Shown here one piece after another: positions 18,147 through 35,301 of a stretch of 52,146 bases of DNA. Position 1 is the first letter of the stretch, and each line of letters opens with the position of its first letter. Under the pieces are notes generated by a model. It saw only the letters and a list, made by a program, of their open reading frames with translations. It was not told where the DNA came from and searched no databases. The position numbers were made by a program, and so were the translations under genes. The stretch spans positions 1 to 52,146 of the forward strand of contig CANGZT010000003.1 in assembly GCA_947458955.1 (NCBI GenBank). Direction: 5' to 3'. The stretch is from Flavobacteriia bacterium (lineage in GTDB: Bacteria > Bacteroidota > Bacteroidia > Flavobacteriales_D > Crocinitomicaceae).

Positions 18147-18866
18147 ATGAAATTGAAATTTTCTATTAATTACGAGATAATTATCATCCCTTTTTTAGTC
18201 GTAGTCCTAATGTGGGTTGTTTTTTGGGGTGAATTTGTATCGTCAATAGATTTAACTAGATTAGGTATTTTACCAAGAACTTTATCAGGGATTTTTGGTA
18301 TTTTATTTTCTCCCCTACTCCATTCAAAAACAGATATTAATCATATAATTAATAACTCTATCCCCATTTTTTTATCACTTGTTACCTTATTCTTTTTTTA
18401 CCCACAGATCGCATACAAAATTTTTATCTTATGTTGGCTTAGTTCGGGTATACTTACTTGGTTGATTGCAGAAAATGAAGGTAGTTTCCATATTGGAATG
18501 AGCAGTGTTATTTATTCCTTAATTGTTTTCTTATTCGTCAGCGGCATCATAAAAAAACAGTTAAAATATCAAGCTATTTCTATGCTTATTGTTCTAACCT
18601 ATGGCAGTTTAGTTTGGGGTGTTTTTCCTGTGGAAGAAAAGATTTCATGGCAAGGTCATCTAGCAGGTGTAATATCTGGTATCCTAATGGCTCTACTTTA
18701 TGTAGATAAAGAAATAGAGCAACATAAAGAAATACAAAGCTTTATTCCTAAAGAAAGCATTGAAACCGAATTAAAGAATTATAATATTGAATTTAAAACC
18801 AATCAACATATATCTAATTCAAATACAAATATCAACTATGAGTATATTAAAAAACAAATTGACTGA
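18147..18866 (+). CDS. Rhomboid family intramembrane serine protease
   Basis: 239 aa multi-TM; 'LLHSKTDINHIINNSIPIFLS', 'HIGMSSVIYSLIVFLF' (Ser in GxSx), 'WQGHLAGVISGILMALL' (catalytic His region). Confidence 0.82.
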   Translation: MKLKFSINYEIIIIPFLVVVLMWVVFWGEFVSSIDLTRLGILPRTLSGIFGILFSPLLHSKTDINHIINNSIPIFLSLVTLFFFYPQIAYKIFILCWLSSGILTWLIAENEGSFHIGMSSVIYSLIVFLFVSGIIKKQLKYQAISMLIVLTYGSLVWGVFPVEEKISWQGHLAGVISGILMALLYVDKEIEQHKEIQSFIPKESIETELKNYNIEFKTNQHISNSNTNINYEYIKKQID

Positions 18867-19305
18867 TAAACCCTGTTTCTGAAGAAATATATTCTGTTGA
18901 TCTAAAATCAAACTTTAATTCTAAAAAATTGGCTGTATTCATTAAAATTCTTTGTCCTGTCAAATAACTAGCTAGTGCTGATATTCCTTCATTGTGCGCT
19001 ACAATACAAACAGAGTCATTTGATTTTAAATCATTTATAAATCCTAACATTTCAGATGATGAGGCGAGGTATAATTCAGGCAAATATCGAACTTTGTTTT
19101 CTTCAAAAAGCAATTCAAACGTTTGTACTGTTCTTTGACTTGAAGAGACGAAAAAATGTACTTCACTCCAATCAAAGTACTTTAATTTACTTCTCAATTC
19201 AACACATTGAGACTTACCAAAATTTGAAAGATTTCGATCGATATCTTTTCCAGTAAATGAATTTAGTTCAGCGTCAGCGTGTCGAATTAAGAAAAGTGAA
19301 ATCAT
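18847..19305 (-). CDS. SixA-like histidine phosphatase family protein
   Basis: 152 aa; 'LFLIRHADAE' RHG-type motif and 'VCIVAHNEGISALASYL'. Confidence 0.88.
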   Translation of the reverse strand: MISLFLIRHADAELNSFTGKDIDRNLSNFGKSQCVELRSKLKYFDWSEVHFFVSSSQRTVQTFELLFEENKVRYLPELYLASSSEMLGFINDLKSNDSVCIVAHNEGISALASYLTGQRILMNTANFLELKFDFRSTEYISSETGFISQFVF

Positions 19306-19306
19306 T

Positions 19307-19939
19307 TTATTTTTTATTTACTAAAACAGTATCATACAATGTTGAAGAAGGATTGAGCAATAGTGCTTTTTTGAATAAGGAAATTGCCTCTTCTTTTTTT
19401 CCTAAATTATATTTAGTCCACCCTGCTAGATTTACACCATCAAAATCAAAAGGATAAAGCGATAAATAAGTTGATAAATACGTTTGAGCAGTATTAAAAT
19501 CAGCTCTATTAAAATACATCATAGATATAAAATATAATGCTTTAGCATTCCCTGGATCGATTTTCAATATCTCTTTGTACTGAGTCAAAACATCTTCCCA
19601 TTTTTCAAGAGCTGCCAAACTGTATACATATCCTAAACGTGCCTCAATACTTTTGGGGGCTGATTCAATGCATTTTTTATATAAAATAGCTGATTGTTGA
19701 TATTTTACATTCACATAATTTAGATATGCTAACCTAATGTTAATCTCATAATTTGATGAACTTGCATATAAAGACAACTCTTCTATTGCTTTTGCATATT
19801 TACCAATGTATTCTGCTTCATAACTTTTTTTAAAAGCATTTCGCAGATCAATATCAGCCTGCGAAACCTGTGCATTCAGACTTGAGAAAGTAAAGGCTAA
19901 AAAACCATAAACTACTGCATTTAAAATTACTTTTTTCAT
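19307..19939 (-). CDS. TPR-repeat protein with signal peptide (paralog A)
   Basis: 210 aa; repeated TPR-like helices, 'ALEKWEDVLTQYKEILKIDPGNAKALYFISMMYF'. Confidence 0.8.
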   Translation of the reverse strand: MKKVILNAVVYGFLAFTFSSLNAQVSQADIDLRNAFKKSYEAEYIGKYAKAIEELSLYASSSNYEINIRLAYLNYVNVKYQQSAILYKKCIESAPKSIEARLGYVYSLAALEKWEDVLTQYKEILKIDPGNAKALYFISMMYFNRADFNTAQTYLSTYLSLYPFDFDGVNLAGWTKYNLGKKEEAISLFKKALLLNPSSTLYDTVLVNKK

Positions 19940-19956
19940 GACTATAATTATTTTTA

Positions 19957-20577
19957 TTATTTGATTCCTAATATTTTATTAAAAGAGGTGTCATAAGGAT
20001 TCACCATCAATGCTTTTTTGAAAAAAACGTAGGCTTCCTCTTTTTTTCCAACATTATATTTAATCCACCCCGCTAAACTATTTCCATCATAATCAAATGG
20101 ATATAAATTAATATATTTTTGTAAATACTTCCAAGCATTTCCATAATCTAAACGATTATAATAAATTAAAGCAAGACGATAATTCGCAGTAGCATGAAAA
20201 GGGTCGATTTTTAATATTGATTTATATTGATTTACAACCTCATCCCATTTTTCTAACGCAGCGAGCGGATAAACAATTCCTAATTTTGCCTCGATGCTAA
20301 TTGGCATTTTCAGAATGGCTTTTTTGTAATAGGAAATTGATTCAACGTATTTATTATTTTTATAATTCAACCAACCTAATCGAAGGTTTAGTTCATAAGA
20401 ACTCGCTTCATAAACAGCTGTTAATTCTTCGATTGCCTTGTTGTATTTTAATTGGTACTCTGCATCATAACTCTTTTTTAAAGCATCTCTAATTGCATTA
20501 TCTGATTGAGAAAAAAGAGAAAAAGAGAAAAGTAAAAAAAAGAAAGTAGAATGCACTTTTTTGATTAAAATTTCCAT
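19957..20577 (-). CDS. TPR-repeat protein with signal peptide (paralog B)
   Basis: 206 aa; aligns along its length with the 19307..19939 product ('ALEKWDEVVNQYKSILKIDPFHATANYRLALIYYNRLDYGNAWKYLQKYINLYPFDYDGNSLAGW'). Confidence 0.8.
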   Translation of the reverse strand: MEILIKKVHSTFFFLLFSFSLFSQSDNAIRDALKKSYDAEYQLKYNKAIEELTAVYEASSYELNLRLGWLNYKNNKYVESISYYKKAILKMPISIEAKLGIVYPLAALEKWDEVVNQYKSILKIDPFHATANYRLALIYYNRLDYGNAWKYLQKYINLYPFDYDGNSLAGWIKYNVGKKEEAYVFFKKALMVNPYDTSFNKILGIK

Positions 20578-21965
20578 ATTAAATTAATTATAAATGAATT
20601 ATTAGAATAATTATCTTCCATTTTAAATTGTGAATTTGATAAATATCTAACATAATTTGATGATCTTCTTAAATAGTCATATCTAAAATTCAAGGTCCAA
20701 TTCGGATTTATATAGTAAGCAAGATTAATTCCAGATTTAGATTTTATAACATCAGAAATATTATAAACTACATATGCATTAGATTCATGAAAATTCTTCA
20801 AATTTCCTTGATAATGGTAGATTTCGAACCACCAATTATCTGTAATTCTTCCTACTACTTTGGCAAAACCAATATTTCGTTTCGTAGTATCGACAGATAG
20901 ATAATAACCTCCTATAAAATTTAAATTGTAGTTCCCTAATGGACTATAGGTTAATTGTCCACCAACTTGATAAATACTTGTTTTATCGATATTAGCATAA
21001 CCAATGCCAATCGATGAATTCAAATTTGAAAATGTTTTTGATAATGAAACAGATGTAACAAAATTATTCAATGAATTAGGATTTATTTGATACTTATAGT
21101 TATAAACTAAAGTATCAGAATTTTGATTTTTAATAGAATCACTTGTTGCCACTAATTTCTGTTGTGAATAGAACATATTTTGAAATCCTACTAGTAGAGC
21201 AAATCTATTAGATAGATTCATCGTTGTTCCTAAATAAACTTGATATTGACTTAAAGTGTAATCTTGAGCAGTATCTTTTAATTTGATTGATTTATTAAAA
21301 ACCGCATTCTGATAATCATATATGTACGAAATATCATTGGAATATATATGTCTTTCCCTGTTATTCTGCACATAAGACATTCCAGTATATAATTTCATTT
21401 TTTTAGAAATAGGAAAGTTTACTCCTATCTGGTAATATTGTAACGATTTCATTCGATCAGATTCAGAATAAACACCGTCGCTACCCATAAATGTATTCGC
21501 CAATTGATTATTCGTATATGATGTTGTTTGATAACCACTTTCAATATTCAACATCTTTTCTTTTCCTAACATTTTAGTATAATAAGATTGTGAGTTCAAG
21601 GGTAATTTTGACAAAATTTGTTTCGCTTCATCCAAATTATTCAAATAAAGATTACAATAAAAGAGATATTCTCTTGTGTAAAAATCACCAGGATAATATT
21701 CTAAAGCAATACTAAAATGTTCAGCCGCTAACAGATATTTTTTTTGATTGAAATAGGAAATCCCTATTCTATAACGTAAATAATAAAAATCAATCCCTGC
21801 ATCAAACGATTTTTTCGCTAAAGAAATCAATTCATTATGATTTCCATTCATTGAATAAACATAAGATAAACTATCTACATCGAATTCTTTTAACAGTTTC
21901 CTGTTTTTTTGAGCAAAAACAGAAAAGCCAAAAACTATAAAGATTACTATTAAACTTACTCGCAT
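20565..21965 (-). CDS. TPR-containing outer-membrane beta-barrel protein (YaiO-like)
   Basis: 466 aa; signal peptide, N-terminal TPR-like helices, then alternating beta-strand region ending in 'NNSFIINLIWKF'. Confidence 0.65.
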   Translation of the reverse strand: MRVSLIVIFIVFGFSVFAQKNRKLLKEFDVDSLSYVYSMNGNHNELISLAKKSFDAGIDFYYLRYRIGISYFNQKKYLLAAEHFSIALEYYPGDFYTREYLFYCNLYLNNLDEAKQILSKLPLNSQSYYTKMLGKEKMLNIESGYQTTSYTNNQLANTFMGSDGVYSESDRMKSLQYYQIGVNFPISKKMKLYTGMSYVQNNRERHIYSNDISYIYDYQNAVFNKSIKLKDTAQDYTLSQYQVYLGTTMNLSNRFALLVGFQNMFYSQQKLVATSDSIKNQNSDTLVYNYKYQINPNSLNNFVTSVSLSKTFSNLNSSIGIGYANIDKTSIYQVGGQLTYSPLGNYNLNFIGGYYLSVDTTKRNIGFAKVVGRITDNWWFEIYHYQGNLKNFHESNAYVVYNISDVIKSKSGINLAYYINPNWTLNFRYDYLRRSSNYVRYLSNSQFKMEDNYSNNSFIINLIWKF

Positions 21966-24169
21966 ATAGCCTCTACTTTCAATTTATTAGTAGTGATTTC
22001 AAATCTTGAAATTTTGTTTTCCGAAAGATGAATTTGATAATTAAATTCTTTCTGTTTTATTCCAGCAATTCTTATTTCTGAAGAAGAAGTAAGTTTGATT
22101 TTATTCGTCAAATTAACATCATCTATTTCTGCATAATTCAAGACAAAAGAAGTTTTCAAAAATTGATAAAAAGGTGCAACAAAATCTTGTAATACAGACA
22201 ATAGTTTAAGTGAAATGGTTGCCATCGGATACTTTTCTTCAATTTGAAGTCCCTTATAAAAACCTAAAACTACCTTATAATTTGCTAAATAAAAATGGTA
22301 AAGTAATCCCTTTTTATTCCCTATATAACTTGTAAATAAAATCATATTTCCATCATTGTAGAAATAAGAAATTTCTTTGGTTTCATGACAGAAAATGTAA
22401 GAGTGATTCAAACTATCTGTAAATACTTCCCAATTTTCGGTATAATCTATTCCATTTTTAGAAAAACTCCATTTCAATTTCTTTCCTGGAATTAAGTCGT
22501 AGGCTGATTTCATCAAGGGATTTACATCAATTGAACTGATTAATTGCCCCTCTTTTGGCTTTTCAAATGTTTTTAATGAAAGCGTGTTGTTTTCTCTTAA
22601 TAAATAATACGCTAAAGGAAAATCCAATGTTATCGCACCAATGGTAGGAATTGTCTGTAATTGAAAATGTAAATGTGGTTCAGGTGATCTTCCAGAACTA
22701 CCACACAATGCAATAATCTCTCCACGTTTTACAAAATCTCCAACTGCATATTTTATAGAACCTTTTTTCAAATGACTAACCTGACTGTATAAACCATCAA
22801 TATGGTAAATAACTATTGTGTTTCCCCAATTTTGAAGCGTATTAACTTCATTCGGGTCATTATCATCAATATTGTCCTGAATAGCAACCACATAACCATC
22901 AGCACAGGCCAATACAGGTTTATTGTAGCAATAAAAATCTTCTGTAGTTAATCCTGGAAGTTGATATGATTTTAATTCGTCATCCAACACGATAAAATCA
23001 AAAGCTTTACTCCATTCCCCTAAATGCGTGATATTTCCATCATGTCCTTGAGAAACCATCCATTCTCCCCAAATTGGTAAATGAATTGGAAAGTAATTGA
23101 ATTGTCTTAATCTGTGGTTTGAATTTAAAAAACCATATAAATTTTGCTCTGGTTGATAGGTTTGATTTAAAACTTTATGAATGCCTTTGATTTTTGTTCG
23201 ATGATTTAAAACATAAAGAAATAATATAGTTATCAATGTAAATGGAAGAGAATATGGTGCTAATCCTATCAGATATAATATTTTATTTAATCCAAATAAA
23301 ACAATAATCAATAAAGGTGTTAATAAGATGCTAGTCAAATAACTCCAAATTGATGGAATTAAGTAAATTCCCCCAATTGCAATTGCTTGAAATATAAAAT
23401 TTAAACCGATAAATTTTTCATAGAAATCAGAAATATCACCACCCAACAAAGGGTAAAAGAAATATGCAGTTACATAACCCAAAATTGACAATGTAAAAGC
23501 AATTCTAGAATAAATTAATAAACCTAAAGCAATTAATAATCCGGATAATACATTCGATTGAAAAAATAAAGAGGAAAGTGATTTAAGATATACGATAATA
23601 ATTTGAGGAAGTGCAAGATATTCTTTTTGAGTATGTTCAATTAATTGAAGCCATTTTATATTTGAAAACCTTTCTGATTTTTGTATTTCATTCAGTTCAT
23701 ACAATAATTCATTGTTTATATGAATGGTATGCATTGATGGAAAAGCACTAAAAACTAACCAAATTGAGATTAAAAAAGGGAAACTTAAAGATGGTAAATG
23801 ATATTTGTGAAGAATTCCATGTACAAAGGATGAAATCAATATGGAAAAAATACCTAAACAAATAATTACTAAAAACAATGTGAAATTAAACTCATAAAAA
23901 TGGGCAATTCCAACTGAAACAAGCATTGCATCGTAGCCGTGATATCCTTTTCGAATAAAATCTGAATTTAACCCTAAAACCGATGCGAAAATATTCGCTG
24001 AAACCAACCCTAACAATCCACATGCTCCTGCTATTGGATCTACAAAAGAGGCCAAAAGCAACAAAATGCCGAAAAAGCGATTATTAGAGAAAAAGACTAC
24101 TGCATAACTATTGATAATAGAATCAATAGTATGCAATAGCCTCTGATTTATATTTTTAAGTTTTAACAT
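21956..24169 (-). CDS. Urea-transporter-like membrane domain fused to M23-type peptidase domain
   Basis: 737 aa; UT-like 'FVDPIAGACGLLGLVSANIFASVLGLN' and 'HLPSLSFPFLISIWLVF'; M23-like 'YSQVSHLKKGSIKYAVGDFVKRGEIIALCGSSGRSPEPHLHFQLQ'. Confidence 0.82.
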   Translation of the reverse strand: MLKLKNINQRLLHTIDSIINSYAVVFFSNNRFFGILLLLASFVDPIAGACGLLGLVSANIFASVLGLNSDFIRKGYHGYDAMLVSVGIAHFYEFNFTLFLVIICLGIFSILISSFVHGILHKYHLPSLSFPFLISIWLVFSAFPSMHTIHINNELLYELNEIQKSERFSNIKWLQLIEHTQKEYLALPQIIIVYLKSLSSLFFQSNVLSGLLIALGLLIYSRIAFTLSILGYVTAYFFYPLLGGDISDFYEKFIGLNFIFQAIAIGGIYLIPSIWSYLTSILLTPLLIIVLFGLNKILYLIGLAPYSLPFTLITILFLYVLNHRTKIKGIHKVLNQTYQPEQNLYGFLNSNHRLRQFNYFPIHLPIWGEWMVSQGHDGNITHLGEWSKAFDFIVLDDELKSYQLPGLTTEDFYCYNKPVLACADGYVVAIQDNIDDNDPNEVNTLQNWGNTIVIYHIDGLYSQVSHLKKGSIKYAVGDFVKRGEIIALCGSSGRSPEPHLHFQLQTIPTIGAITLDFPLAYYLLRENNTLSLKTFEKPKEGQLISSIDVNPLMKSAYDLIPGKKLKWSFSKNGIDYTENWEVFTDSLNHSYIFCHETKEISYFYNDGNMILFTSYIGNKKGLLYHFYLANYKVVLGFYKGLQIEEKYPMATISLKLLSVLQDFVAPFYQFLKTSFVLNYAEIDDVNLTNKIKLTSSSEIRIAGIKQKEFNYQIHLSENKISRFEITTNKLKVEAICE

Positions 24170-24184
24170 TAACCTAAATAAGTT

Positions 24185-25549
24185 TTATAAATTGAAAGCG
24201 CTTAAATGCTCTGGTAAACGTTCCATCTCTTTCAAGGTATCAACTGTTTCATTTTCACGAATCACATGATGATTTCCATTCGTATCAATTAATACCACTT
24301 TTGGTCTCATAGCGATAAACTGCATCCATTGAGTCATATTATACGCCCCTACTTTGTGAACAACTACATGGTCACCTTTATTTAATGCTGGTAGTGTAAC
24401 ACTCTGACGCACTACATCTATATTCATACACAAAGGACCATATAAAACCATATCCTCAGTATGAGTTGAAAACTCTTGAGCTGGAGTGATTTTATGCTCA
24501 TACCAAAAAGCTGTAAATAAAATATTTACTCCAAAATCCATGATGGTTGCTCTTCTACCATCAGAAAGTCGTTTGTTTGCTATTACACTTCCCAATAGAT
24601 ATCCTGCATCATCAATTAAAGCACGACCTGTTTCTAAAATCAAAAGAGGAAGTTCTTCTTTTTTATATCCGTAATTTAAAATTGTAGAAGTAATTATTTC
24701 TGCAAATTCATCAATTGTTGGAATCACATCTGAACCAGGTAAATATGAACCCCTTAATGTATTAGCAGAAGGAAAACCTCCACCTAAATCTAAATATTGT
24801 ATTGCTTTGTTATAAACATACTTAATATTTACTGCTAAATCGGAAAGTTTCGACGCTGCAACACCATAAGCACTTGGAGTCAACATAAAAGTTCCAATAT
24901 GGCAATGTAGTCCAACAAAATCTAAATATTCAGAGGCCATTATTTTATTAATAGCATTCCAAGCCTGTCCTGACTCATAATTAAATCCAAAGCGATCCCA
25001 CATTGGATAGACTCCAGTATCCATGTTCACACGAATGGCAACTTTTGCTGTTTTCTTTAATTCTGTTGTAACTTCAATTAAATCATAAAGTTCATCAAAA
25101 TGATCAATGTGAATATAAGAACCATTTTCAATAGCAACAGTCATATCCGCTTTTGTCTTCTCAGGACCATTGAAAAGAATTTTATTTCCAGGAACACCAT
25201 TTGCAATTGCTTTTGAATATTCGAAAATAGAAACTACTTCTGCCCATGAGCCTTCTTGGTGAAAAACATTACAAACAGCATCTAAATAATTTGTTTTGTA
25301 ACTCCACGCAAATTGCACCTTCGGATAACGTGTTTTAAAGGCTCTCACCGCATTTTGATAAGTACGACGAATAGTTCTTTCAGAAATCACAAAACAAGGA
25401 GAACCGTAGTTCGAAATTAATTCCTTAACTGAAACACCATCAATATGTGTAAAAGGTGCATATTCAGTACGTGTTCCAAATTTATTCATTAATCCTGTAT
25501 TCATTTTTCGAATTGCAGGTCGTTCATATTTTAATTTTTCAGTGCTCAT
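24185..25549 (-). CDS. Fold-III PLP-dependent decarboxylase (DAP/Orn/Arg decarboxylase-like)
   Basis: 'FAWSYKTNYLDAVCNVFHQEGSWAEVVSIFEYSKA', 'VGLHCHIGT', 'YLDLGGGFPS', 'ETGRALIDDAGYLLGSV', 'YGPLCMNIDV'. Start MSTEKLKYERP at 25549 preferred over ORF-track 25582. Confidence 0.85.
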   Translation of the reverse strand: MSTEKLKYERPAIRKMNTGLMNKFGTRTEYAPFTHIDGVSVKELISNYGSPCFVISERTIRRTYQNAVRAFKTRYPKVQFAWSYKTNYLDAVCNVFHQEGSWAEVVSIFEYSKAIANGVPGNKILFNGPEKTKADMTVAIENGSYIHIDHFDELYDLIEVTTELKKTAKVAIRVNMDTGVYPMWDRFGFNYESGQAWNAINKIMASEYLDFVGLHCHIGTFMLTPSAYGVAASKLSDLAVNIKYVYNKAIQYLDLGGGFPSANTLRGSYLPGSDVIPTIDEFAEIITSTILNYGYKKEELPLLILETGRALIDDAGYLLGSVIANKRLSDGRRATIMDFGVNILFTAFWYEHKITPAQEFSTHTEDMVLYGPLCMNIDVVRQSVTLPALNKGDHVVVHKVGAYNMTQWMQFIAMRPKVVLIDTNGNHHVIRENETVDTLKEMERLPEHLSAFNL

Positions 25550-25584
25550 AATTTTAGTTTTTTTAATGTTTAATTTTCTCATTT

Positions 25585-25623
25585 GTCTTCGACGGGCTCA
25601 GACTTACATTGGACTGTCTCAGT
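25585..25623. repeat. Possible dispersed REP-like element (GTCTTCGACGGGCTCAGAC plus adjacent ACTGTCTCAGT)
   Basis: Locally GC-rich, partially dyad-symmetric segment in the only sizeable gap inside the operon; resembles the CTTCGAC-xGGCTCAG repeats found in many Bacteroidota genomes. Confidence 0.4.
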
Positions 25624-25643
25624 ATAAAATGGGGGATTTTTAA

Positions 25644-26702
25644 TTATAACTCTCCGAATGCTGAGATTTTTTGAAATTCAGAAACGTCTGTTATTAAATC
25701 CCAAGCATAACGAATGAAAAGTTTACCAACTTCATACGAAGTGAATGGTTCTACTTTTTGCCCTAATGCCATTTTCACCAAAGATGCCGGCTGATTTTGA
25801 CCTGCACCAACTGTTAAATATATCCATGCTGGAAAACGGGGATTTACCTCCATAATATAAGGTTTTCCATCTTGTGTAAGCATAATCTCAATTTCAAATC
25901 CTCCCCTCCACTTTGTTGCTGAAATGAATTTTTTAGACAAATCAATTAATTTATCTTCTTCGATGGTAATACCTGCCCATGCTTTTCCTTTATCGGTTAT
26001 AAAAAGTTTTCGCATTGGAACAGCACTAATTGTATTGCCTTCACCATCACCAAGAGCTGCAACATTAACTTCAGTTCCAGTAATGAATTCTTGAACAATA
26101 ATAGGCAAACCCCATTTCGCATTTAATTTATGAAACGCTTTTTGTGCTTGCTCCAAAGTATAAGCGATGGTTGCTTCGTAGTATTTCCCTTTAACAACAA
26201 TTGGATAACCAAAATCTTTTGCAACTTGAGGTAATTCAGATAAATCATAAATTGTTTTATCTCTAGGAACTAATAATCCATGTTTTTCACCAAACTTAAA
26301 AAGATTGATTTTATCACGAGCCTCAAACTGTTCTAAAGAGGGTAAAAAAGTACCTATACCCATTGCTTTTAATCGCTCAGAAATCTTAATGAAATTATGT
26401 AATTCAGCATCAAAATTTGGAACAATTACATCAATTTTTTCAATTGCATGAATGTATTCAATTCTTCCAAGAAGAGATTCAGAACCGGCTGCTGGATATG
26501 GAATTTGATACACTTTATCAGCGATACCCTCCATATAAATTCCAGGTTCTAACGATTCGTATGAAAGACCGATTATACGCACATCAAAATCCTGACAGTC
26601 GCGAATTCCACGAATTACAGCAACTCCAGGTCCTGGACTATCAACCGCATTCAATCCTGTTACGGCAACAGTCAATTTTGTTTTTTTAGGTTGATTAGTC
26701 AT
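25644..26702 (-). CDS. ATP-grasp domain ligase (carbamoyl-phosphate-synthase-large-like)
   Basis: 352 aa; 'DFGYPIVVKGKYYEATIAYTLEQA', 'LPIIVQEFITGTEVNVAALGDGEG', 'KPYIMEVNPRFPAWIYLTVGAG'. Confidence 0.88.
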   Translation of the reverse strand: MTNQPKKTKLTVAVTGLNAVDSPGPGVAVIRGIRDCQDFDVRIIGLSYESLEPGIYMEGIADKVYQIPYPAAGSESLLGRIEYIHAIEKIDVIVPNFDAELHNFIKISERLKAMGIGTFLPSLEQFEARDKINLFKFGEKHGLLVPRDKTIYDLSELPQVAKDFGYPIVVKGKYYEATIAYTLEQAQKAFHKLNAKWGLPIIVQEFITGTEVNVAALGDGEGNTISAVPMRKLFITDKGKAWAGITIEEDKLIDLSKKFISATKWRGGFEIEIMLTQDGKPYIMEVNPRFPAWIYLTVGAGQNQPASLVKMALGQKVEPFTSYEVGKLFIRYAWDLITDVSEFQKISAFGEL

Positions 26703-26940
26703 TACTTACTAAATAATAATCTTGTAATTGAGAAACGAAATCATGAAAATCTTTCTCAAAAAGAATTTCATCGACTTCATATTTTTCTACTATTTCTTTT
26801 TTAATTGAATCGAAAGAATTTCCAGCTTTTAAAAGCCTAATAATATCTGAACCAACAGTATTTGTTGAGAAAGAGTCACCATTTGAAGGATTAAAGATAA
26901 ATCCACTGTCACTCACTGCTAAATTTGATTTTATTTTCAT
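26695..26940 (-). CDS. PqqD-like protein (candidate RiPP recognition element domain)
   Basis: 81 aa; 'LAVSDSGFIFNPSNGDSFSTNTVGSDIIRLLKAGNSFDSIKKEIVEKYEVDEILFEKDFHDFVSQLQDYYLV' matches the PqqD layout (SDxGFxFxPxxGxSFxxNxxGxxIxxLLxxG...Y.VD...D...F...L). Confidence 0.8.
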   Translation of the reverse strand: MKIKSNLAVSDSGFIFNPSNGDSFSTNTVGSDIIRLLKAGNSFDSIKKEIVEKYEVDEILFEKDFHDFVSQLQDYYLVSND

Positions 26941-27055: not shown

Positions 27056-27784
27056 TTAATTTTCTTCAGGTATATCTAAACCTAATGCTTTGAATAAAGC
27101 ATCTTTATAATTATCTCCTATAAAGATTTCACTCTCATGCACAAATAACCTCGTTTTCTTAATGGAAGTAATTTTACCCATATTCACAATAAAAGATTTG
27201 TGAACCCTCATAAATCCTAATAAGTTCAAACGTTCATCAATCGTTTTCATACTCATACGAGTAACGATTGGTTTTTGCTGTCCTGATAAATATATTTTGA
27301 TATAGTCTTTTAACCCTTCTATATAAGCAATTTCTGGAATAATCACTTTTACAAGACTATAATCAGCATTTACAAATAAATAATCTGGCGGTAATTGTTT
27401 TAAGGTTGTTGGAGTTGAATTATGGATTAAATTGTACGTTTCCTTTACCTTTATTACACTTTTATAAAAGCGATCAAAAGAAAAAGGTTTTACGAGAAAA
27501 TCTATCACATCTAATTCAAACCCTTCGATTGCGTATTTTTTGTAAGCTGTTGAAAAAATTACAAATGGTTTATTTTTCAATGACTGCACAAATTGAACAC
27601 CATTTATTTCTGGCATCTCAACGTCAACAAAAAGTAAATCAATTTGATTAGAATCTAAAACATCGTATGCTTCAAAAGCATTCCTACAAGATGCAACAAG
27701 AGTTAAAAATGGTACTTTATGAATAAAGTCTACCATCATTTCAAGCGCTAATGGCTCATCATCAATACAAATACATCGAATCAT
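27056..27784 (-). CDS. LytTR-family response regulator
   Basis: 242 aa; receiver 'CIDDEPLALEMMVDFI...DLLFVDVEMPEINGVQF...LVKPFSFDRF' and C-terminal LytTR 'YIEGLKDYIKIYL...FMRVHKSFIVN'. Confidence 0.93.
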   Translation of the reverse strand: MIRCICIDDEPLALEMMVDFIHKVPFLTLVASCRNAFEAYDVLDSNQIDLLFVDVEMPEINGVQFVQSLKNKPFVIFSTAYKKYAIEGFELDVIDFLVKPFSFDRFYKSVIKVKETYNLIHNSTPTTLKQLPPDYLFVNADYSLVKVIIPEIAYIEGLKDYIKIYLSGQQKPIVTRMSMKTIDERLNLLGFMRVHKSFIVNMGKITSIKKTRLFVHESEIFIGDNYKDALFKALGLDIPEEN

Positions 27785-28863
27785 TTTCTTAAATCAATAA
27801 ATAAATGTACAATAAAAAAATCATCTATAACCTCAGTATGTAATTGATGACAAGACGGATACAATAATTCAAGTCTTCTTGTAACATTAGACAAACCTAT
27901 ACCATTATTCTTCTGATGATTATAAGTATTTGTTTGTTCAATTTTAAAACGATTTTTTGTTGTTAATAATATTTTACTTTCTTCATTATAAAATTCAATT
28001 TCAATGATTGGTTCTTTTAAAACCAAAGTACCATGTTTAAAAGCATTTTCAATAAAAGGAATTATTAGCATAGATTCTAAAAAATTGTCTTTAAGTGATT
28101 CATCAATAAGTATTTTCTTACTTATTTGAACGGTGTTACCAAATCGTATTATTTGTAAATCAATGTAACTTTCTAAATACTCTAATTCTTCTCTTAAAGT
28201 GATTTTTTCACTATCACTCTCATACAACATATATCGCATTAATGAAGCCAATTTTATTAATGCTTCTTCTGCTTTTTCACTTTGCTTTCTAACAAGTATA
28301 ATACTGCTATTTAAAGCATTAAAAATAAAATGAGGGCTTATTTGTGATCTTAAAAAAGATAATTCTGTTTTTAACTGTTGGTTTTCTTTTTCTTTTTGTT
28401 TCTTTTCATTTTTATATTTCACTATTAATAAACGATATAGCGTACTTACTAACAAAATAAAGAAAAGTGGAAACAATAAAGATATAATTTGATTTATCCT
28501 CAATAATTCTCGATGAGGAAATCTTGGTGGTTTATGACTAGTTAATTTAGGAAATTTAAGATGAGGAAACAGAACATATGATAACCAGGAAATAAATATC
28601 AAGGTAAACATAATGACAATAAAATAAAGAATATATTTTTTATTTAAAAGATACTTTGTAACAAAAAAAGAAGAATTTGCATAAAATAAAAAGATAAAGA
28701 AAAAATAATTTATTAAAATATGTGGATCTAATAAGAATGCAATATTAATATTAGTTATGGAGTGAATTCCGCGAGGATCAATGAATGGAACCAAATAAAA
28801 TGCTAGCCAAAAACCAATGTGAATAAATGAAATGGCTAAAGATGTCGATTTATTAAAAGGCAT
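27781..28863 (-). CDS. LytS/YehU-type sensor histidine kinase
   Basis: 'QLKTELSFLRSQISPHFIFNALNSSIILVRK' H-box, 'IPFIENAFKHG' N-box, 'NNGIGLSNVTRRLELLYP' G-box; start MPFNKSTS at 28863 (ORF-track start lies inside the preceding gene). Confidence 0.9.
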   Translation of the reverse strand: MPFNKSTSLAISFIHIGFWLAFYLVPFIDPRGIHSITNINIAFLLDPHILINYFFFIFLFYANSSFFVTKYLLNKKYILYFIVIMFTLIFISWLSYVLFPHLKFPKLTSHKPPRFPHRELLRINQIISLLFPLFFILLVSTLYRLLIVKYKNEKKQKEKENQQLKTELSFLRSQISPHFIFNALNSSIILVRKQSEKAEEALIKLASLMRYMLYESDSEKITLREELEYLESYIDLQIIRFGNTVQISKKILIDESLKDNFLESMLIIPFIENAFKHGTLVLKEPIIEIEFYNEESKILLTTKNRFKIEQTNTYNHQKNNGIGLSNVTRRLELLYPSCHQLHTEVIDDFFIVHLFIDLRK

Positions 28864-28890
28864 AAAAAAAAGCCGTTTTGACAGACGGCT
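28864..28890 (-). terminator. Intrinsic terminator whose T-run abuts the kinase start codon
   Basis: Minus strand: AGCCGT-CTGTCAAA-ACGGCT followed by TTTTTTT and then ATG at 28863. Confidence 0.7.
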
Positions 28891-28897
28891 AAAACTA

Positions 28898-31051
28898 CTA
28901 ATTATCTTTCTTTTTCTTCTTTTTCTTCTTCTTATCTTTTTTATCCTTTTTGGCTTTAGATAAGTCATCCATAGGTTGAAGTAATCGTTGTTCAGCTAAA
29001 TCTGGATCAAAATCCATACCTCTAACAAACCCCTCCGTTCTTCGATTTAATGCATGTAATTTTTCAAATTTGATTGGATCTTTTTCTTTAAATTGATTGA
29101 TATATTTTTCTGTTAAAAGCACCGATTTACCTCTTTCATCAACCCATTTTACAGGTTCTTTTTCACCTTTTCCAGCAGGTATTAATCTTCTTACATCAAT
29201 TCCTTTTTCTTCAACTAAATATCGAATACATTCTTTTGCTCTATTGTTAGAAAGCATCAAATTCAACTCATCTCCACCTCTTGAGTCCGTATGCGAACTC
29301 AATTCAAGAATCATTTTAGGATATTTCATCAAAACATCATAAACAAAATTCAATGAATCTTTAGAACTAATTGTAGAGTCTTGTAGTAACTCCCATTTTC
29401 CAAATGCATACCTAACCTCTGGAATTCTAATTTTTTCTTCAGGAATGAGCAAAGGAACGTCAATTATAAAATTTTGATCTCTTCTTAAACCACGGGTTGT
29501 AAATTGAGTTTCGCTTTTATTTTTTTCAGAACCTACTTTATATGCAGTAATTAAGTAATCTGTATTTTCTTTGATAATTCTTTCACCATTTGGTTTTAGA
29601 TCAAAAAACACATTTCCTCTTCTGTCTGTTGTACCTTCTATTTTAGAACTGTCTGACCCCGTGATAATTACCCTTATATTGCCCAACTTTTTGTCAACAG
29701 AACCTAGTTTACTAACAATTACCTTTAAATCAAACATATTGGGTGGTAATTGATATTTATACAAATCAGATTTCATATTTCCACCCGTATTTCCTTTACG
29801 TTCAGAGGTGAAATATCCTTCAGCATCGTTAATTTCAATTAAACTAAAATCGTTACCCTCAGAATTTCTTGGTGCGCCAATATTGACAGGAGTTTCCCAT
29901 TGATACTTACCATCTTTTTTTGTCGCTCTAAAAATATCTAATCCACCAAGTCCAGGATGACCATCACTAGCAAAAAATAAATCTTCGTAAGAGTTAAATG
30001 TTGGAAACATTTCATTTCCAGCTGTGTTAATCTCAGGTCCCATATTAATTGGTTGAGACCAAACATCCGCTTTTTTTGAATACGTTGAATACCATAAATC
30101 AAGACCACCTTGACCTCCAGCCATATCCGATACAAAAATAAGTGTGTTACCATCTAAAGTTACACAAGGATGACCAATAGAAATTGAATCGGCTGTTTTA
30201 ACAAGCACCTTAATTGGTTCGCCCCAATCTTTACCTTTTGATTCTGACATCCAAATCTCACAACCTAAGTTTTTATTTTTTTCAAATGGACATCTTGTAA
30301 AAAACATTTTCTTAAACTTTCCATCAAAACATACCGTTCCCTCGTTGTGCTCTGTATTAATCTTCTCTCCTCCAAGCAACTGAGGCTCACCCCAGTTTCC
30401 TTTCTTATCTTGTTGAGAAATCCAAAGATCCATATGACCTACACAAGTTCTAGGATCTGAATCTCCATTGTTTGGACTAGTTCTGTCTGAACTAAATACA
30501 ACAGATGATTTCTTTTTATCACCAAACACTGGAGACATATCAAACCCTTCTTTATTTAGAATGGAAATATTTGATATTAGATGATTTGATTTTGAAGCAG
30601 CAAATTCAGCTGATTTTTTACAAGACTGAATACCTGCATCTGCACGAGTATCTCTAGGAACTAATAATTTATATGCATTGTAATTATCTAAAGCTAATTT
30701 ATGATCTCCCAAGTATCTAATCATTTCAGCAAAATAAAAAAGTACCTCCGGATTAAATTTTTGATAATTTAATAAAATTGCTTTTTGATACCATTCAATT
30801 GCGCCTTTAAAATCCTCCATTTTTCGAAAACACTCTCCTGTTTTAAAGGCCATTTCACCTTTACGCTCAACTGCTTTTCTACTTTTTGGATTGACTTTTT
30901 CAAAAGCTTCAATCGTGTATTTAGAAGCTTCACAATAATTTTCATTATTGTAGTATTTATTTGCTTTTCTAATTTCTTTTGGTTCTTGGGCACTTGCTTT
31001 AAAAAAAACAAAACCTAAGAAAACCAACAATATAGAAATATTTATTTTCAT
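28898..31051 (-). CDS. PorE-like OmpA-family protein (TPR + PD40 propeller + OmpA C-terminal domain)
   Basis: 717 aa; N-term TPRs 'EIRKANKYYNNENYCEASKYTIEAFEK', PD40-type 'GHPCVTLDGNTLIFVSDMAGGQGGLDLWYS', OmpA 'ILELSSHTDSRGGDELNLMLSNNRAKECIRYLVE'. Confidence 0.83.
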   Translation of the reverse strand: MKINISILLVFLGFVFFKASAQEPKEIRKANKYYNNENYCEASKYTIEAFEKVNPKSRKAVERKGEMAFKTGECFRKMEDFKGAIEWYQKAILLNYQKFNPEVLFYFAEMIRYLGDHKLALDNYNAYKLLVPRDTRADAGIQSCKKSAEFAASKSNHLISNISILNKEGFDMSPVFGDKKKSSVVFSSDRTSPNNGDSDPRTCVGHMDLWISQQDKKGNWGEPQLLGGEKINTEHNEGTVCFDGKFKKMFFTRCPFEKNKNLGCEIWMSESKGKDWGEPIKVLVKTADSISIGHPCVTLDGNTLIFVSDMAGGQGGLDLWYSTYSKKADVWSQPINMGPEINTAGNEMFPTFNSYEDLFFASDGHPGLGGLDIFRATKKDGKYQWETPVNIGAPRNSEGNDFSLIEINDAEGYFTSERKGNTGGNMKSDLYKYQLPPNMFDLKVIVSKLGSVDKKLGNIRVIITGSDSSKIEGTTDRRGNVFFDLKPNGERIIKENTDYLITAYKVGSEKNKSETQFTTRGLRRDQNFIIDVPLLIPEEKIRIPEVRYAFGKWELLQDSTISSKDSLNFVYDVLMKYPKMILELSSHTDSRGGDELNLMLSNNRAKECIRYLVEEKGIDVRRLIPAGKGEKEPVKWVDERGKSVLLTEKYINQFKEKDPIKFEKLHALNRRTEGFVRGMDFDPDLAEQRLLQPMDDLSKAKKDKKDKKKKKKKKKDN

Positions 31052-31128: not shown

Positions 31129-32199
31129 TTAAATAGTGAGGTTATTTTCATTCAAATTTGAAGTGTAATTCACCCACTTTGTTAAAATATCTTGATACCC
31201 TTTTGGTAAATCAGAATCAAAAAACAACCTTTCTCCTGTTTCAGGATGATCAAACCCTAACGTTTTAGCGTGTAACGCTTGCCCTGGAATTAACTGAAAA
31301 CAATTATCTATAAACTGTTTATACTTTGTACTAGTTGTACCTCTAACAATCTGATCACCTCCATATTCTAAGTCATTAAATAAAGGATGACCTAAATACC
31401 TCATATGAGCGCGAATTTGATGCGTTCTACCAGTTTCTAATTTACATTCAACCAAAGTAACTAAACCAAATCTTTGTAAAACAGCATAATGTGTTACTGC
31501 ATGCTTTCCAAAATCACCATCTGGAAAAACAGTCATCATTTTTCTATTTTTTAAAGACCTACCAATGTTCCCGGTAATTGTTCCTGAGTCTTCCTCAATA
31601 TTCCCCCAAACCAAAGCCTGATACCTTCTATCTGTTGTTCGATCATAGAATTGCTTTGCTAAATGTGTAAGAGCAAATTCTGTTTTTGCTACAACCATTA
31701 TACCAGTTGTATGTTTATCTAACCTATGAACTAAACCTGGACGTCCATAAAATTCATCGTTTCTAACAGGTAGATTATCGAAATGATAAACTAACGCATT
31801 CACTAATGTTCCTTTATAATTCCCATACCCAGGATGTACAACCATATTTGAAGGTTTATTAATTACAATTAAGTGTTCATCTTCAAAAACAATATCTAGT
31901 GGAATATCTTGTGGTATTAATTCTATCTCTCTAACAGGATAAGGAAAAACAACTGAAATCTCATCTGCAGGTTTTACTTTGTAATTTGATTTAACCTCTT
32001 TTTTATTGACAAGTATGTTGCCATTTTTCGCAGCAATTTGAATTTTATTTCTGGAAGTATTTGCAATTTTATCCATCAAAAATTTATCGATTCGAACCAT
32101 CTCTTGTCCTTTATCAACTATAAACTTATGATGTTCAAATAATTCTTCTCCTGAATTAAATTCTTCTTCCTCCCAACTTTCCAAATGTGCTTGTTCCAT
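31129..32199 (-). CDS. RluA-family pseudouridine synthase (RluD-like)
   Basis: 356 aa; 'GRPGLVHRLDKHTTGIMVVAK', 'TGRTHQIRAHMRYLGHPLFND', N-terminal S4-like domain. Confidence 0.93.
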   Translation of the reverse strand: MEQAHLESWEEEEFNSGEELFEHHKFIVDKGQEMVRIDKFLMDKIANTSRNKIQIAAKNGNILVNKKEVKSNYKVKPADEISVVFPYPVREIELIPQDIPLDIVFEDEHLIVINKPSNMVVHPGYGNYKGTLVNALVYHFDNLPVRNDEFYGRPGLVHRLDKHTTGIMVVAKTEFALTHLAKQFYDRTTDRRYQALVWGNIEEDSGTITGNIGRSLKNRKMMTVFPDGDFGKHAVTHYAVLQRFGLVTLVECKLETGRTHQIRAHMRYLGHPLFNDLEYGGDQIVRGTTSTKYKQFIDNCFQLIPGQALHAKTLGFDHPETGERLFFDSDLPKGYQDILTKWVNYTSNLNENNLTI

Positions 32200-34439
32200 T
32201 ATTCTATTATTATTTTTTGAGATCGCCCAGACTTAATTGCTGTAACAAAGTAAACCCCTGAGTTTATTGAGGAAACATCTAATCCATTTGAATCATTTAT
32301 AAAAGTAGTTATTTGTCTTCCCTGTATATCCGTAATTACAAACTGCTCTTCAATAGAGGAAATAAAAAGAATACCACTTACTGGATTTGGATAAACTTTA
32401 AAATCAGTCGACTCAACAATCTGATCAACAGATACTTTACTGTTTAGATTTGATAAAAATGCTGGTCTAATCATCAAAGACCCAACTGAATCAACTTGAG
32501 ACCTATTCCAATTTGTTTTGTCTAAAGAATAAAATATTCTAGATATATTTTTAGTATTTCGATCAAAACCAATATTCAGATAATCATTATCTATTTGTCG
32601 TAGACCAATAAAAAAAGAAGTATCTACCCAAAATCGTTTAAAATCCTTAAAATAATATGCCATAAAATGATCTCTTGCGTTTCCATACAAAGGATTGTGA
32701 AGAGAGAAATCATCATCTTCGTAAATTATATCGCCTGGAATTCCGTTATTATCTTTCCAAATGGTGAGTGCAAATTCCTTTTTAGACTTATCATTGACCG
32801 ATGGCGAAAAATAGATATAGGCACCGATCAAAGAATCTGGTATCAAAGTATTTATTTTATATGCAACAGATGCTTGTGCTGATTTCAAACCATAAGCAGC
32901 TTCAGCTGTCCCGTCATCATAAGCATAATAATCTTGAAATTTTTGAATAAATATAGAGGAATCATTCTCGGGTAAGTTAGTAAAAGATGCTTTAATATTC
33001 GCTTTTATTGTGACTGAAGTTGAATCTTCATTGATTGTATATGGAATATTTATTTTATCCATAAAATTATGAAAAGATAAATAATTTGTAAATTTTGAAT
33101 AGTTTACTTGTCCATTTGTTAATTTTTGACCTAGTATTTCAAATTCATTAAACTTAATCCCTTGCTTATAAAGCCTAAGATAATTTGATTGATCGTTGTT
33201 CTCATCAACATTACTACCATTTCTAATAAAATATGCAATCGAATCTGATAGTGATTTCTTGCTAGATTTGTTAAAATGAACCCATGGAACAGAGGTATAC
33301 TTTTTTAAAATTGAATTAACAGGGTAAATAATTGCAAAATCTTTAAAAAGAGTGTCTTGGTAACCTGAATTTTTACGAAATTTCACATAATCTAGATGAA
33401 AATGATCTAGGCTACCAGATAAATCACCATAATTTACAAATCGAAATTGAAAATTATTTTTTAGAAAGGTAGAATCTTTTATTTTAAAATGAACCTTTTT
33501 AAAGTTGACAAACTCTTTATTTTGAATATCTGGAATTTCACTTACTGTTCTAGACCATACTGAAAACCATTTATCATAAGTAGGGTTATAGAACTGTAAA
33601 CACAAGGAGTCGTGCTTTGAAGTTGAACCCACGTTAATATTTTCAGGAGCGTCTCCAAAACCTTTCGGTTGGTATAGAAAGCTGAAATAAAGGGAATCTT
33701 TCAGTTTCAAACCATTTAAATTTATTGGCTTAGAAGTTAAATAATCTCCATACCCTCTAATGCTTGTATTTATAGAATATGGGAAGCCATTCGCTTTTAA
33801 ACCATCAAAAGTCGCAACTCCTATAGTCCATGGGTTTACAGCAAAATGGGTGTTTCTATAAACATTTGAATCAATCCAATAAGCATCTTTATTCGTTACT
33901 TTATTTTCAAAAACCAATACAGAATCTTGAAAAAATTCGAGATTTTTTAACCAAACCGTATCTTCAATATTTCCCTCTTCAAGAGTGTCATATATACTAT
34001 AATTCGGGAAAACCGACTTATCTAAATAATTTATAGGATATGCTGTTAAATCAGCTATTTTAATTTTAGTTGATTTTGTAGCTATATCAACAATTGAATC
34101 TTTCTTTTCTTTAGGCAAATGAATATATTTCTTTGGTGTTGAACTTGAAAATTTATTAATCTCTATAAATTCAAGGTTTTGTCCTGAATATTTGTAATAT
34201 TTTGTTTGTTTAACATTTAAACCAGAAGTTTTACGTTCGTATCTCTGAAAATGATCCTGAGAAAAATCGTCAATTATTGGTAATGTAAGTGTATCCGTAA
34301 CAAACACAAATAAAGTATCATCTGAAACTCTTTTATTTAAGCTTTGATTACCCACTTTTAATAGTGGAGATAAAACTTCTACTTGAGAAAGTAAACTAAA
34401 TGAAAATAATATGAATAAGAATAATATTTTGAATTTCAT
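32199..34439 (-). CDS. T9SS type A sorting-domain secreted protein
   Basis: Signal peptide from MKFKILFLFILFSFSLLSQ at 34439; C-term 'FKVYPNPVSGILFISS...VITDIQGRQITTF...SINSGVYFVTAIKSGRSQKIIIE'. Confidence 0.82.
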   Translation of the reverse strand: MKFKILFLFILFSFSLLSQVEVLSPLLKVGNQSLNKRVSDDTLFVFVTDTLTLPIIDDFSQDHFQRYERKTSGLNVKQTKYYKYSGQNLEFIEINKFSSSTPKKYIHLPKEKKDSIVDIATKSTKIKIADLTAYPINYLDKSVFPNYSIYDTLEEGNIEDTVWLKNLEFFQDSVLVFENKVTNKDAYWIDSNVYRNTHFAVNPWTIGVATFDGLKANGFPYSINTSIRGYGDYLTSKPINLNGLKLKDSLYFSFLYQPKGFGDAPENINVGSTSKHDSLCLQFYNPTYDKWFSVWSRTVSEIPDIQNKEFVNFKKVHFKIKDSTFLKNNFQFRFVNYGDLSGSLDHFHLDYVKFRKNSGYQDTLFKDFAIIYPVNSILKKYTSVPWVHFNKSSKKSLSDSIAYFIRNGSNVDENNDQSNYLRLYKQGIKFNEFEILGQKLTNGQVNYSKFTNYLSFHNFMDKINIPYTINEDSTSVTIKANIKASFTNLPENDSSIFIQKFQDYYAYDDGTAEAAYGLKSAQASVAYKINTLIPDSLIGAYIYFSPSVNDKSKKEFALTIWKDNNGIPGDIIYEDDDFSLHNPLYGNARDHFMAYYFKDFKRFWVDTSFFIGLRQIDNDYLNIGFDRNTKNISRIFYSLDKTNWNRSQVDSVGSLMIRPAFLSNLNSKVSVDQIVESTDFKVYPNPVSGILFISSIEEQFVITDIQGRQITTFINDSNGLDVSSINSGVYFVTAIKSGRSQKIIIE

Positions 34440-34470
34440 GTTTTGAATAAACGAGAAAAATGATCTTTTA

Positions 34471-35301
34471 TTATTCTTCATCCTCAGTTTTAGCTTCACG
34501 GTTATCTTTGAAGTTTTTATCTAAGAAAATAACAATATCAGAACCAGGTGGTCTTGTATTACCTTCAAAATATTCTGGTGTCTGACCTGTAACTCTTGCA
34601 GATAAACTATCTCTTTTTGACTTACAGCCTAAACACTCTCCAATAATTAAACTAACTGATGGTAAGTCAATAGTGGCCGAATCTGCTTGAGCTAAAGTTA
34701 GACCATATAAATCAGGAACCTCAAATGGTTCGTCTTTTGATGCTTTACCGACAATCAGATCTATTACAGAACCATAAGGCACTTTTAATCCCTCTACTGC
34801 TTTACGTCCATTATATCTTTGTGAAACAACTGCATCAATATCATTCGGACTAATTGTATACTTTAATCTAAATTTTAAACCTCTGTTTTTTAATATACTT
34901 TCAGCATACCTTTTTGATTTATGCATCAAATCAGGAATCACAACATAACGAACCTTTTTTGACAAGCTAATTTCTAAAATTCTAGAACTTTTAACAAATA
35001 CTTTAGTTCTAGATGTTGCTTCTGGTATTTGTTTTACTATTGTACCAGCAGGTAATTCAGGTCGATATATCGAATCAATAATAATATATTCTAAACCAGA
35101 ATCATCTAATAATTCTTCAATATTATCAGAGTGCTTACCTATTAAATTAGGTACGGCTATTTTTTCACCGTGATGTGTGCGAATATCAAGATATAAGAGA
35201 GTCCCTCCAACAATTAATAGATAAGTTAAAATAACTAAACCGACTTGTTTGATAAAGTGTTTCGTTTTTATAAACTCTTTTATATTCTTAAATCTACTCA
35301 T
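34471..35301 (-). CDS. PASTA-domain membrane protein
   Basis: N-terminal TM, then three PASTA-like repeats ('VPNLIGKHSDNIEELLDDSGLEY', 'IPDLMHKSKRYAESILKNRGLKF', 'VPDLYGLTLAQADS'); start MSRFKN at 35301. Confidence 0.82.
   Translation of the reverse strand: MSRFKNIKEFIKTKHFIKQVGLVILTYLLIVGGTLLYLDIRTHHGEKIAVPNLIGKHSDNIEELLDDSGLEYIIIDSIYRPELPAGTIVKQIPEATSRTKVFVKSSRILEISLSKKVRYVVIPDLMHKSKRYAESILKNRGLKFRLKYTISPNDIDAVVSQRYNGRKAVEGLKVPYGSVIDLIVGKASKDEPFEVPDLYGLTLAQADSATIDLPSVSLIIGECLGCKSKRDSLSARVTGQTPEYFEGNTRPPGSDIVIFLDKNFKDNREAKTEDEE

Follow-up and report, generated by a model that had tools for sequence, protein, structure and literature searches.

Discrete lasso-type RREs, the recognition elements of ribosomally synthesized and post-translationally modified peptides (RiPPs), bind a [Y/W]xxPx[L/V/I/F/A] motif (PMC13381572; also PMC12710340). 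LppB touches its leader through N33, D70 (facing the Tyr), F74, M78 and L83 (PMC13381572). A different chemistry is found in rhizoferrin synthesis in Francisella, where FigA/FigC (FslA/FslC) carry out amide formation and then decarboxylation. Butirosin synthesis also pairs a ligase with a decarboxylase: BtrJ is an ATP-grasp enzyme that loads a carrier, and its partner is the LysA-fold decarboxylase BtrK, with decarboxylation following on carrier-bound Glu. Parts that resemble those of all these pathways meet in a gene cluster within a 52,146-nucleotide stretch of DNA from a Flavobacteriia bacterium of the Crocinitomicaceae (contig CANGZT010000003.1, assembly GCA_947458955.1), referred to here as the window. 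The cluster is one conserved gene system of Bacteroidota. Its decarboxylase bears a short N-terminal tag resembling an RRE leader motif, through which a PqqD-like RRE encoded in the same cluster most likely docks the enzyme. The core features are the following.

26695 to 26940, minus strand: PqqD-like discrete RRE, 81 residues (PF05402, E=1e-8)
25644 to 26702, minus strand: ATP-grasp amide ligase of PRK12767 type, 352 residues (PF15632/PF02655)
24185 to 25549, minus strand: pyridoxal phosphate (PLP) fold-III decarboxylase, FigC/FslC-like, with an N-terminal leader-like tag, 454 residues from the conserved start (PF02784 and PF00278)
25475 to 25537, minus strand: leader-like tag KLKYERPAIRKMNTGLMNKFG, decarboxylase residues 5-25 (motif in 140/140 loci)
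21956 to 24169, minus strand: UT-M23 fusion of a urea-transporter (UT) channel, an M23 metallopeptidase and a C-terminal beta domain, 737 residues (PF03253, 8.5e-57, 193 bits; PF01551, 9e-16)
20565 to 21965, minus strand: putative outer-membrane beta-barrel with signal peptide and N-terminal TPR-like part
19957 to 20577, minus strand: secreted TPR protein, core member (TPR domain match; in nearly all sufficiently long loci)

Conservation and linkage

Linkage was surveyed in 297 Bacteroidota genomes, where UT-M23 was counted from matches that include the UT part, the weaker matches being M23 domains alone. UT-M23, the ATP-grasp ligase and the decarboxylase occur in an identical set of 27 genomes (22 genera) and are adjacent in every one, which rules out chance clustering. 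A preliminary description of the window had proposed this kind of neighbourhood survey and had named rare co-occurrence as the result that would speak against a common system; the linkage proves complete. An earlier survey of 119 genomes of the order had found the fusion in four other genomes. Three of these have matching neighbours; in the fourth, the contig ends upstream of UT-M23.

Searched with an ATP-grasp alignment, the genome collection gave 515 related stretches, of which the 80 retained are all from Bacteroidota. In nearly all sufficiently long loci among those 80, the genes follow the order pqqD, ATP-grasp, decarboxylase, UT-M23, barrel, TPR in a common orientation. The position of the barrel varies: its homologue, or a separate barrel-like protein of ~280 residues, follows UT-M23 in most loci, while one branch has the barrel gene after the TPR gene, or elsewhere in the ~280-residue form. 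Additional secreted genes may be inserted, chiefly between pqqD and ATP-grasp or ahead of pqqD. Some pqqD genes are hidden by a longer antisense open reading frame (ORF; e.g., L023, L028), and an all-frame profile search recovered most of them.

For the five core proteins, pairwise distances are strongly correlated (r=0.81-0.95, 0/500 permutations), and the ATP-grasp tree departs from taxonomy, for instance by placing the window and L007, a relative from its own family, in different parts. For these two reasons, the cluster appears to have been transferred between lineages as a unit. A plasmid search returned one Streptomyces ATP-grasp protein at 29%, in an unrelated setting. One genome has a lone close ATP-grasp homologue (L066 = L147) with no pqqD, decarboxylase or UT-M23 nearby.

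The leader-like tag and its putative receptor

About 25-30 residues of the decarboxylase precede the part that aligns with solved LysA/FslC homologues. They hold the consensus [YF]-x-x-P-x-[ILV]...G-x-x-x-K-[FY]-G in 140/140 loci, representing 84 distinct 20-mers in which P4 and K16 are invariant, position 1 is Y or F in 84/84 and G18 is kept in 83/84. Among other ORFs, 36/1104 show a looser form of the motif in their first residues, for the most part within membrane segments. Tag and catalytic domain are equally conserved (entropy 1.08 vs 1.12), whereas the linker behind the tag is variable (2.19). In the AlphaFold2 model of the enzyme (mean predicted local distance difference test score, pLDDT, of 90), residues 1-30 score 42-54 and the next residues, where the catalytic domain begins, about 94-98. 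Conserved yet predicted to be disordered, the tag resembles a short binding motif. NCBIfam models do not recognise it; at the level of sequence it fits YxxPx[LIV], the leader motif that lasso-type RREs bind.

The sole PDB matches of the PqqD-like protein are the lasso RREs TbiB1 (5v1u/5v1v) and TfuB1 (6jx3). Its residues N27, D64, F68, L72 and L77 lie at the spacing of the LppB contacts (37, 4, 4, 5) and are 93-100% conserved, with L or I at 77. Fold family and leader-binding residues are both those of a discrete RRE. The likeness to TbiB1, TfuB1 and LppB thus covers fold family, contact-residue spacing and a YxxPx[IL] partner motif. It ends at the partner itself, since here the motif sits on a metabolic enzyme, and no precursor, lasso cyclase or B2 leader peptidase was found among the conserved neighbours.

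Is there a separate peptide for this RRE to bind? A motif search of all loci detected no recurrent small ORF with the leader motif near the cluster, and no precursor peptide with leader and core. When the tag was searched as a DNA pattern in 15 genomes, the decarboxylase was found in most, and otherwise there were scattered single matches only. Neither a lasso cyclase (Asn-synthetase-like) nor a transglutaminase-like peptidase is among the conserved neighbours, by neighbour clustering and Pfam scans. Because the tag matches the RRE leader motif, the PqqD-like protein keeps its leader-binding residues and no separate precursor was found, docking of the decarboxylase by the PqqD-like protein is the most likely role of the tag. 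The two partners also covary: across 118 distinct loci, Tyr in the tag accompanies Asp64 of the PqqD-like protein in 111, Phe accompanies Tyr, His or Ser at residue 64 in seven, and there are no mixed cases. The Tyr-Asp64 pairing supports a contact between them, albeit from a single switch. The preliminary description, which cited leader recruitment by PqqD-like domains in RiPP pathways, is borne out in part: the motif and pattern searches yielded no free RiPP precursor, and the leader-like sequence belongs to the decarboxylase itself. That description had overlooked the tag.

Ligase and decarboxylase

ATP-grasp ligases of this general fold form amide-type bonds, and the ligase of the window belongs to the PRK12767/CPSase-like group. 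An ATP-grasp ligase next to a leader-like sequence recalls the graspetides (ATP-grasp RiPPs); these differ in that the ligase here is of another family and no precursor was found.

The decarboxylase is nearest to FigC/FslC both by sequence (7kh2, 9.6e-69) and by fold (best match FigC 7kh2, template-modelling score, TM, 0.81). It scores below the curated cut-offs for FslC, the N-citrylornithine decarboxylase (231 bits vs 500), and for LysA (TIGR01048, 216.1 bits vs 297.9). As befits a fold-III PLP decarboxylase, K85 (the PLP Lys), H215, C374 and D378 are present in 49/49 sequences. Read from the sequence alignment, M375, Y403, R309, T346 and Y350 correspond to M355, Y383, R290, T327 and Y331 of FigC, so that the CM motif, Y383, R290 and other residues are retained. 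The FigC citrate contacts H357 and R387, by contrast, are replaced by I377 and Q407, which are invariant here; by this alignment the citrate ligands are lost. Since FigC-like residues are retained while the citrate contacts are replaced, a reasonable guess at the substrate would be an N-acyl amino acid whose acid part is not citrate. The Francisella pathway offers the nearest solved decarboxylase and the order of reactions proposed here. It differs in using a synthetase of the non-ribosomal-peptide-synthetase-independent siderophore (NIS) type where the window has an ATP-grasp ligase, and the N-terminal tag, RRE, UT-M23 and barrel are not part of it. BtrK is also among the structural matches of the decarboxylase. 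The window resembles the butirosin pathway in its pair of an ATP-grasp enzyme and a LysA-fold decarboxylase, and differs in that no acyl carrier protein gene is among the conserved neighbours.

The UT-M23 membrane protein

The AlphaFold2 model of UT-M23 has a pLDDT of 90.6. Its channel part has the UT fold (TM 0.84 to the bacterial urea transporter dvUT, 3k3f/3k3g, by target length) with pore residues partly altered, the equivalent of pore Thr130 being Ser in 45/47 proteins. In the M23 domain H382, D391, H466, H499 and H501 are invariant in 47/47, leaving the zinc-binding and catalytic site intact. The protein thus resembles dvUT in fold and M23 endopeptidases in active site; unlike in those proteins, the two parts are fused, among the surveyed genomes only in this cluster, and the peptidase is predicted to be cytoplasmic. 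The C-terminal ~215 residues (21956-22610) form a beta-rich domain, modelled with confidence, that has no match in Pfam and no clear one in the PDB.

On which side of the membrane does the peptidase lie? Reading the helix order with the known UT fold gives 10 membrane and two re-entrant helices, with M23 on the side of the N-terminus; the side was assigned by helix counting and the inverted repeat. Loops on the side of the termini are richer in Lys and Arg in 47/47 proteins (0.121 vs 0.025), and the soluble part has nearly five Cys on average, one of them invariant. In mammalian UT-A both termini are inside (PMC12649947). Taken together, the position of M23 on the N-terminus side, the Lys/Arg-rich loops and the UT-A precedent predict a cytoplasmic M23 domain that shares its compartment with the RRE, the ligase and the decarboxylase, and not the periplasmic location of a peptidoglycan M23 endopeptidase.

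A candidate pathway and its alternatives

An RRE-scaffolded amide ligase and decarboxylase may make a small N-acyl amine that is handled by UT-M23 and the outer-membrane barrel, a reading to which we give an even chance. From the parts we infer docking, reactions, product and export as follows. The PqqD-like RRE would bind the decarboxylase tag and so hold the decarboxylase beside the ATP-grasp ligase. The ligase would join an acid and an amino acid by an amide bond, and the decarboxylase would then strip the carboxyl group to leave a small N-acyl (aminoacyl) amine, in the order of FigA then FigC in rhizoferrin synthesis, with an acid other than citrate. The inner-membrane UT-M23, its peptidase facing the cytoplasm, would act on the product or its carrier, by processing or release, and the urea-type channel with the outer-membrane barrel and TPR proteins would pass the small polar product outward.

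Several points weigh against this pathway. The ATP-grasp tree places the change from Tyr/Asp to Phe/non-Asp at a single point (support 99/95), which makes it statistically a single coincidence; as the tree holds one switch and not many, the covariation of tag and PqqD-like protein is kept as supporting evidence only. The second conserved element of the tag, GxxxKFG, exceeds the needs of a docking motif, and the ATP-grasp ligase is without a close characterised relative. A cytoplasmic M23 domain is unusual, and its placement relies on helix counting and the statistics of loop charge. An N-acyl amine may be too big for a urea channel, since such channels conduct very small solutes. Finally, the preference for export over import is our inference, drawn because the cytoplasmic part looks biosynthetic.

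The second tag element suggests that the decarboxylase could be its own carrier. The RRE would present the tag, the ATP-grasp ligase would load an amino acid on the invariant Lys23, the decarboxylase would act on it there, and the cytoplasmic M23 domain would free the product by cutting an isopeptide-type bond. In keeping with this, the leader motif is followed by the invariant element GxxxK[FY]G, whose Lys is found in 84/84 tags within a disordered stretch; BtrK, with its carrier-loading partner BtrJ, is among the structural matches; M23 enzymes cut Lys or diaminopimelate (DAP) side-chain amides in the cell wall; and RRE, ligase, decarboxylase and M23 are predicted in one compartment. Against it, Lys23 could instead serve to fasten the tag to either the enzyme or the ligase, and we know of no precedent in this family for an enzyme with an arm of its own. 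Such an arm is unlikely, and it is a shade less likely in the fuller form in which the M23 peptidase fused to the urea-type channel frees the product for export. If true, it would be RiPP logic with the enzyme as a reusable precursor.

A metal-related small molecule of the metallophore kind, with the decarboxylase acting as FigC does in rhizoferrin, is improbable. FigC/FslC is indeed the nearest decarboxylase, and neighbours found in single lineages include a multicopper oxidase, DUF2202, Metal_resist with an extracytoplasmic function (ECF) sigma factor, and an AraC regulator with an N-terminal half like a heavy-metal-associated (HMA) domain (loci L008, L010, L022, L056, L035; the HMA-like half is our interpretation, Pfam finding only the helix-turn-helix). 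These neighbours vary by lineage, however, and most loci are without any; the citrate ligands are lost, and the core has no TonB receptor. A metal role, considered from the lineage-specific neighbours, was not adopted.

Remodelling of cell-wall peptides with a periplasmic M23, an alternative raised in the preliminary description, has little to recommend it. Its appeal comes from the invariant M23 catalytic residues and from a DAP-decarboxylase-like and a D-Ala-ligase-like enzyme in one cluster. It becomes unlikely because M23 is predicted in the cytoplasm: the ten transmembrane helices place it on the Lys/Arg-rich N-terminus side in all 47 proteins, and the Cys content of the soluble part also argues against it. 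Just as doubtful is a RiPP pathway whose precursor is elsewhere in the genome or was missed, with the tag as the remnant of a fused precursor. RRE, ATP-grasp ligase and peptidase do make a RiPP-like tool set; the lack of a recurrent motif-bearing small ORF near the cluster and the outcome of the 15-genome pattern search (the decarboxylase and scattered single matches) tell against it. That the decarboxylase is simply the LysA of the lysine pathway, with unrelated neighbours, is scarcely credible, as its distant similarity (216 bits) stays below the cut-off of 298, the LysA CE motif is CM here, and linkage with the other genes is complete.

Layout of the locus and neighbouring genes

Eight ORFs run consecutively on the minus strand from 18847 to 26940; all were verified, and the junctions given in the preliminary description were reproduced. 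Overlaps measure 8 nt between pqqD and ATP-grasp (26695-26702), 10 nt between UT-M23 and barrel (21956-21965) and 13 nt between barrel and TPR (20565-20577); gaps measure 15 nt between decarboxylase and UT-M23, 17 nt between the two TPR genes and 1 nt between TPR and SixA. The ATP-grasp/decarboxylase gap is 94 nt with the conserved start at 25549 and 61 nt with an upstream ATG at 25582; the start is most likely 25549 (MSTEKL), near the start of its homologues. Domain calls were upheld by Pfam, with the SixA model itself matched only below its cut-off by the histidine phosphatase protein. The barrel protein has no Pfam match except weak TPRs in its N-terminal part, and the label is suggested by its signal peptide and beta-rich C-terminal part. 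Internal promoters or terminators had been named as a test that could split the operon; scans gave counts at chance level for promoter-like sites (62 vs 62.9) and for terminator-like sites (3 vs 3.1), and so neither divide nor unite it. Beyond the core, the locus has the following genes.

19307 to 19939, minus strand: second TPR protein, paralogue of the first (56% identical), in near relatives only
18847 to 19305, minus strand: SixA/histidine-phosphatase-like protein, peripheral (PF00300; window and L011 only)
27056 to 27784, minus strand: LytTR response regulator (PF00072 and PF04397)
27781 to 28968, minus strand: LytS-type sensor kinase, partner of the LytTR regulator, with which it pairs upstream of pqqD

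SixA, confined to the window and the relative nearest to it, L011, is ruled out as a core member, and the second TPR, restricted to near relatives, is a local duplicate; both had earlier been counted in the system. The two-component genes had been overlooked. This LytTR kinase/regulator pair (27056-28968) is upstream of pqqD in 32/83 loci, and the regulator likely controls the cluster in many lineages, to judge from its position. In Chitinophagaceae-type loci the gene immediately upstream of pqqD encodes a GNAT acetyltransferase of ~167 residues, which accounts for 19 of the first 83 loci (L055, L058, L061-L065, L069, L072, L073, L076, L077, L081, L083, L085, L087, L088, L090, L093).

Genes for proteins sorted by the type IX secretion system (T9SS; Por_Secre_tail-like) are enriched just upstream of or inside the cluster. 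They make up 29/160 of the same-strand genes in positions -1 to -3, compared with 16/498 of the distant ones, in loci that are related and not independent. Examples are L030, L034, L035, L039 (266-267 residues), L008:5358-7061, L100, L101, L103, L107-L110 and L115, among others. The products may be clients of the cluster or co-regulated surface proteins. Elsewhere the window encodes a PorV-like T9SS protein at 3010-4059 and, at 32199-34499, another protein that carries a T9SS sorting tail.

Significance

Each part of the cluster comes from a known family, but the whole departs in a defining feature from RiPP systems (no precursor found), rhizoferrin synthesis (core without a NIS synthetase, loss of the citrate ligands), the butirosin type (no carrier protein among the conserved neighbours) and wall hydrolases (predicted not to be periplasmic). 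The gene combination is not described in the open literature searched, in agreement with the preliminary description; subscription papers, such as older ATP-grasp amidoligase surveys, were outside that search. Of the cytoplasmic pathway coupled to an inner-membrane UT-M23 and an outer-membrane barrel that was first proposed, the conserved, linked system stands, and SixA, the second TPR, wall remodelling and a free precursor fall away.

What is left is a system that is spread over many Bacteroidota families and has apparently moved between lineages as a unit. If the proposed docking is true, it would be, to our knowledge, the first known case of RRE/leader recognition from peptide natural products being used to assemble metabolic enzymes. 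With its M23 domain in the cytoplasm as predicted, UT-M23 would likewise be the first case known to us of such a peptidase acting intracellularly in connection with a channel. The pathway is a target for finding an unknown metabolite.

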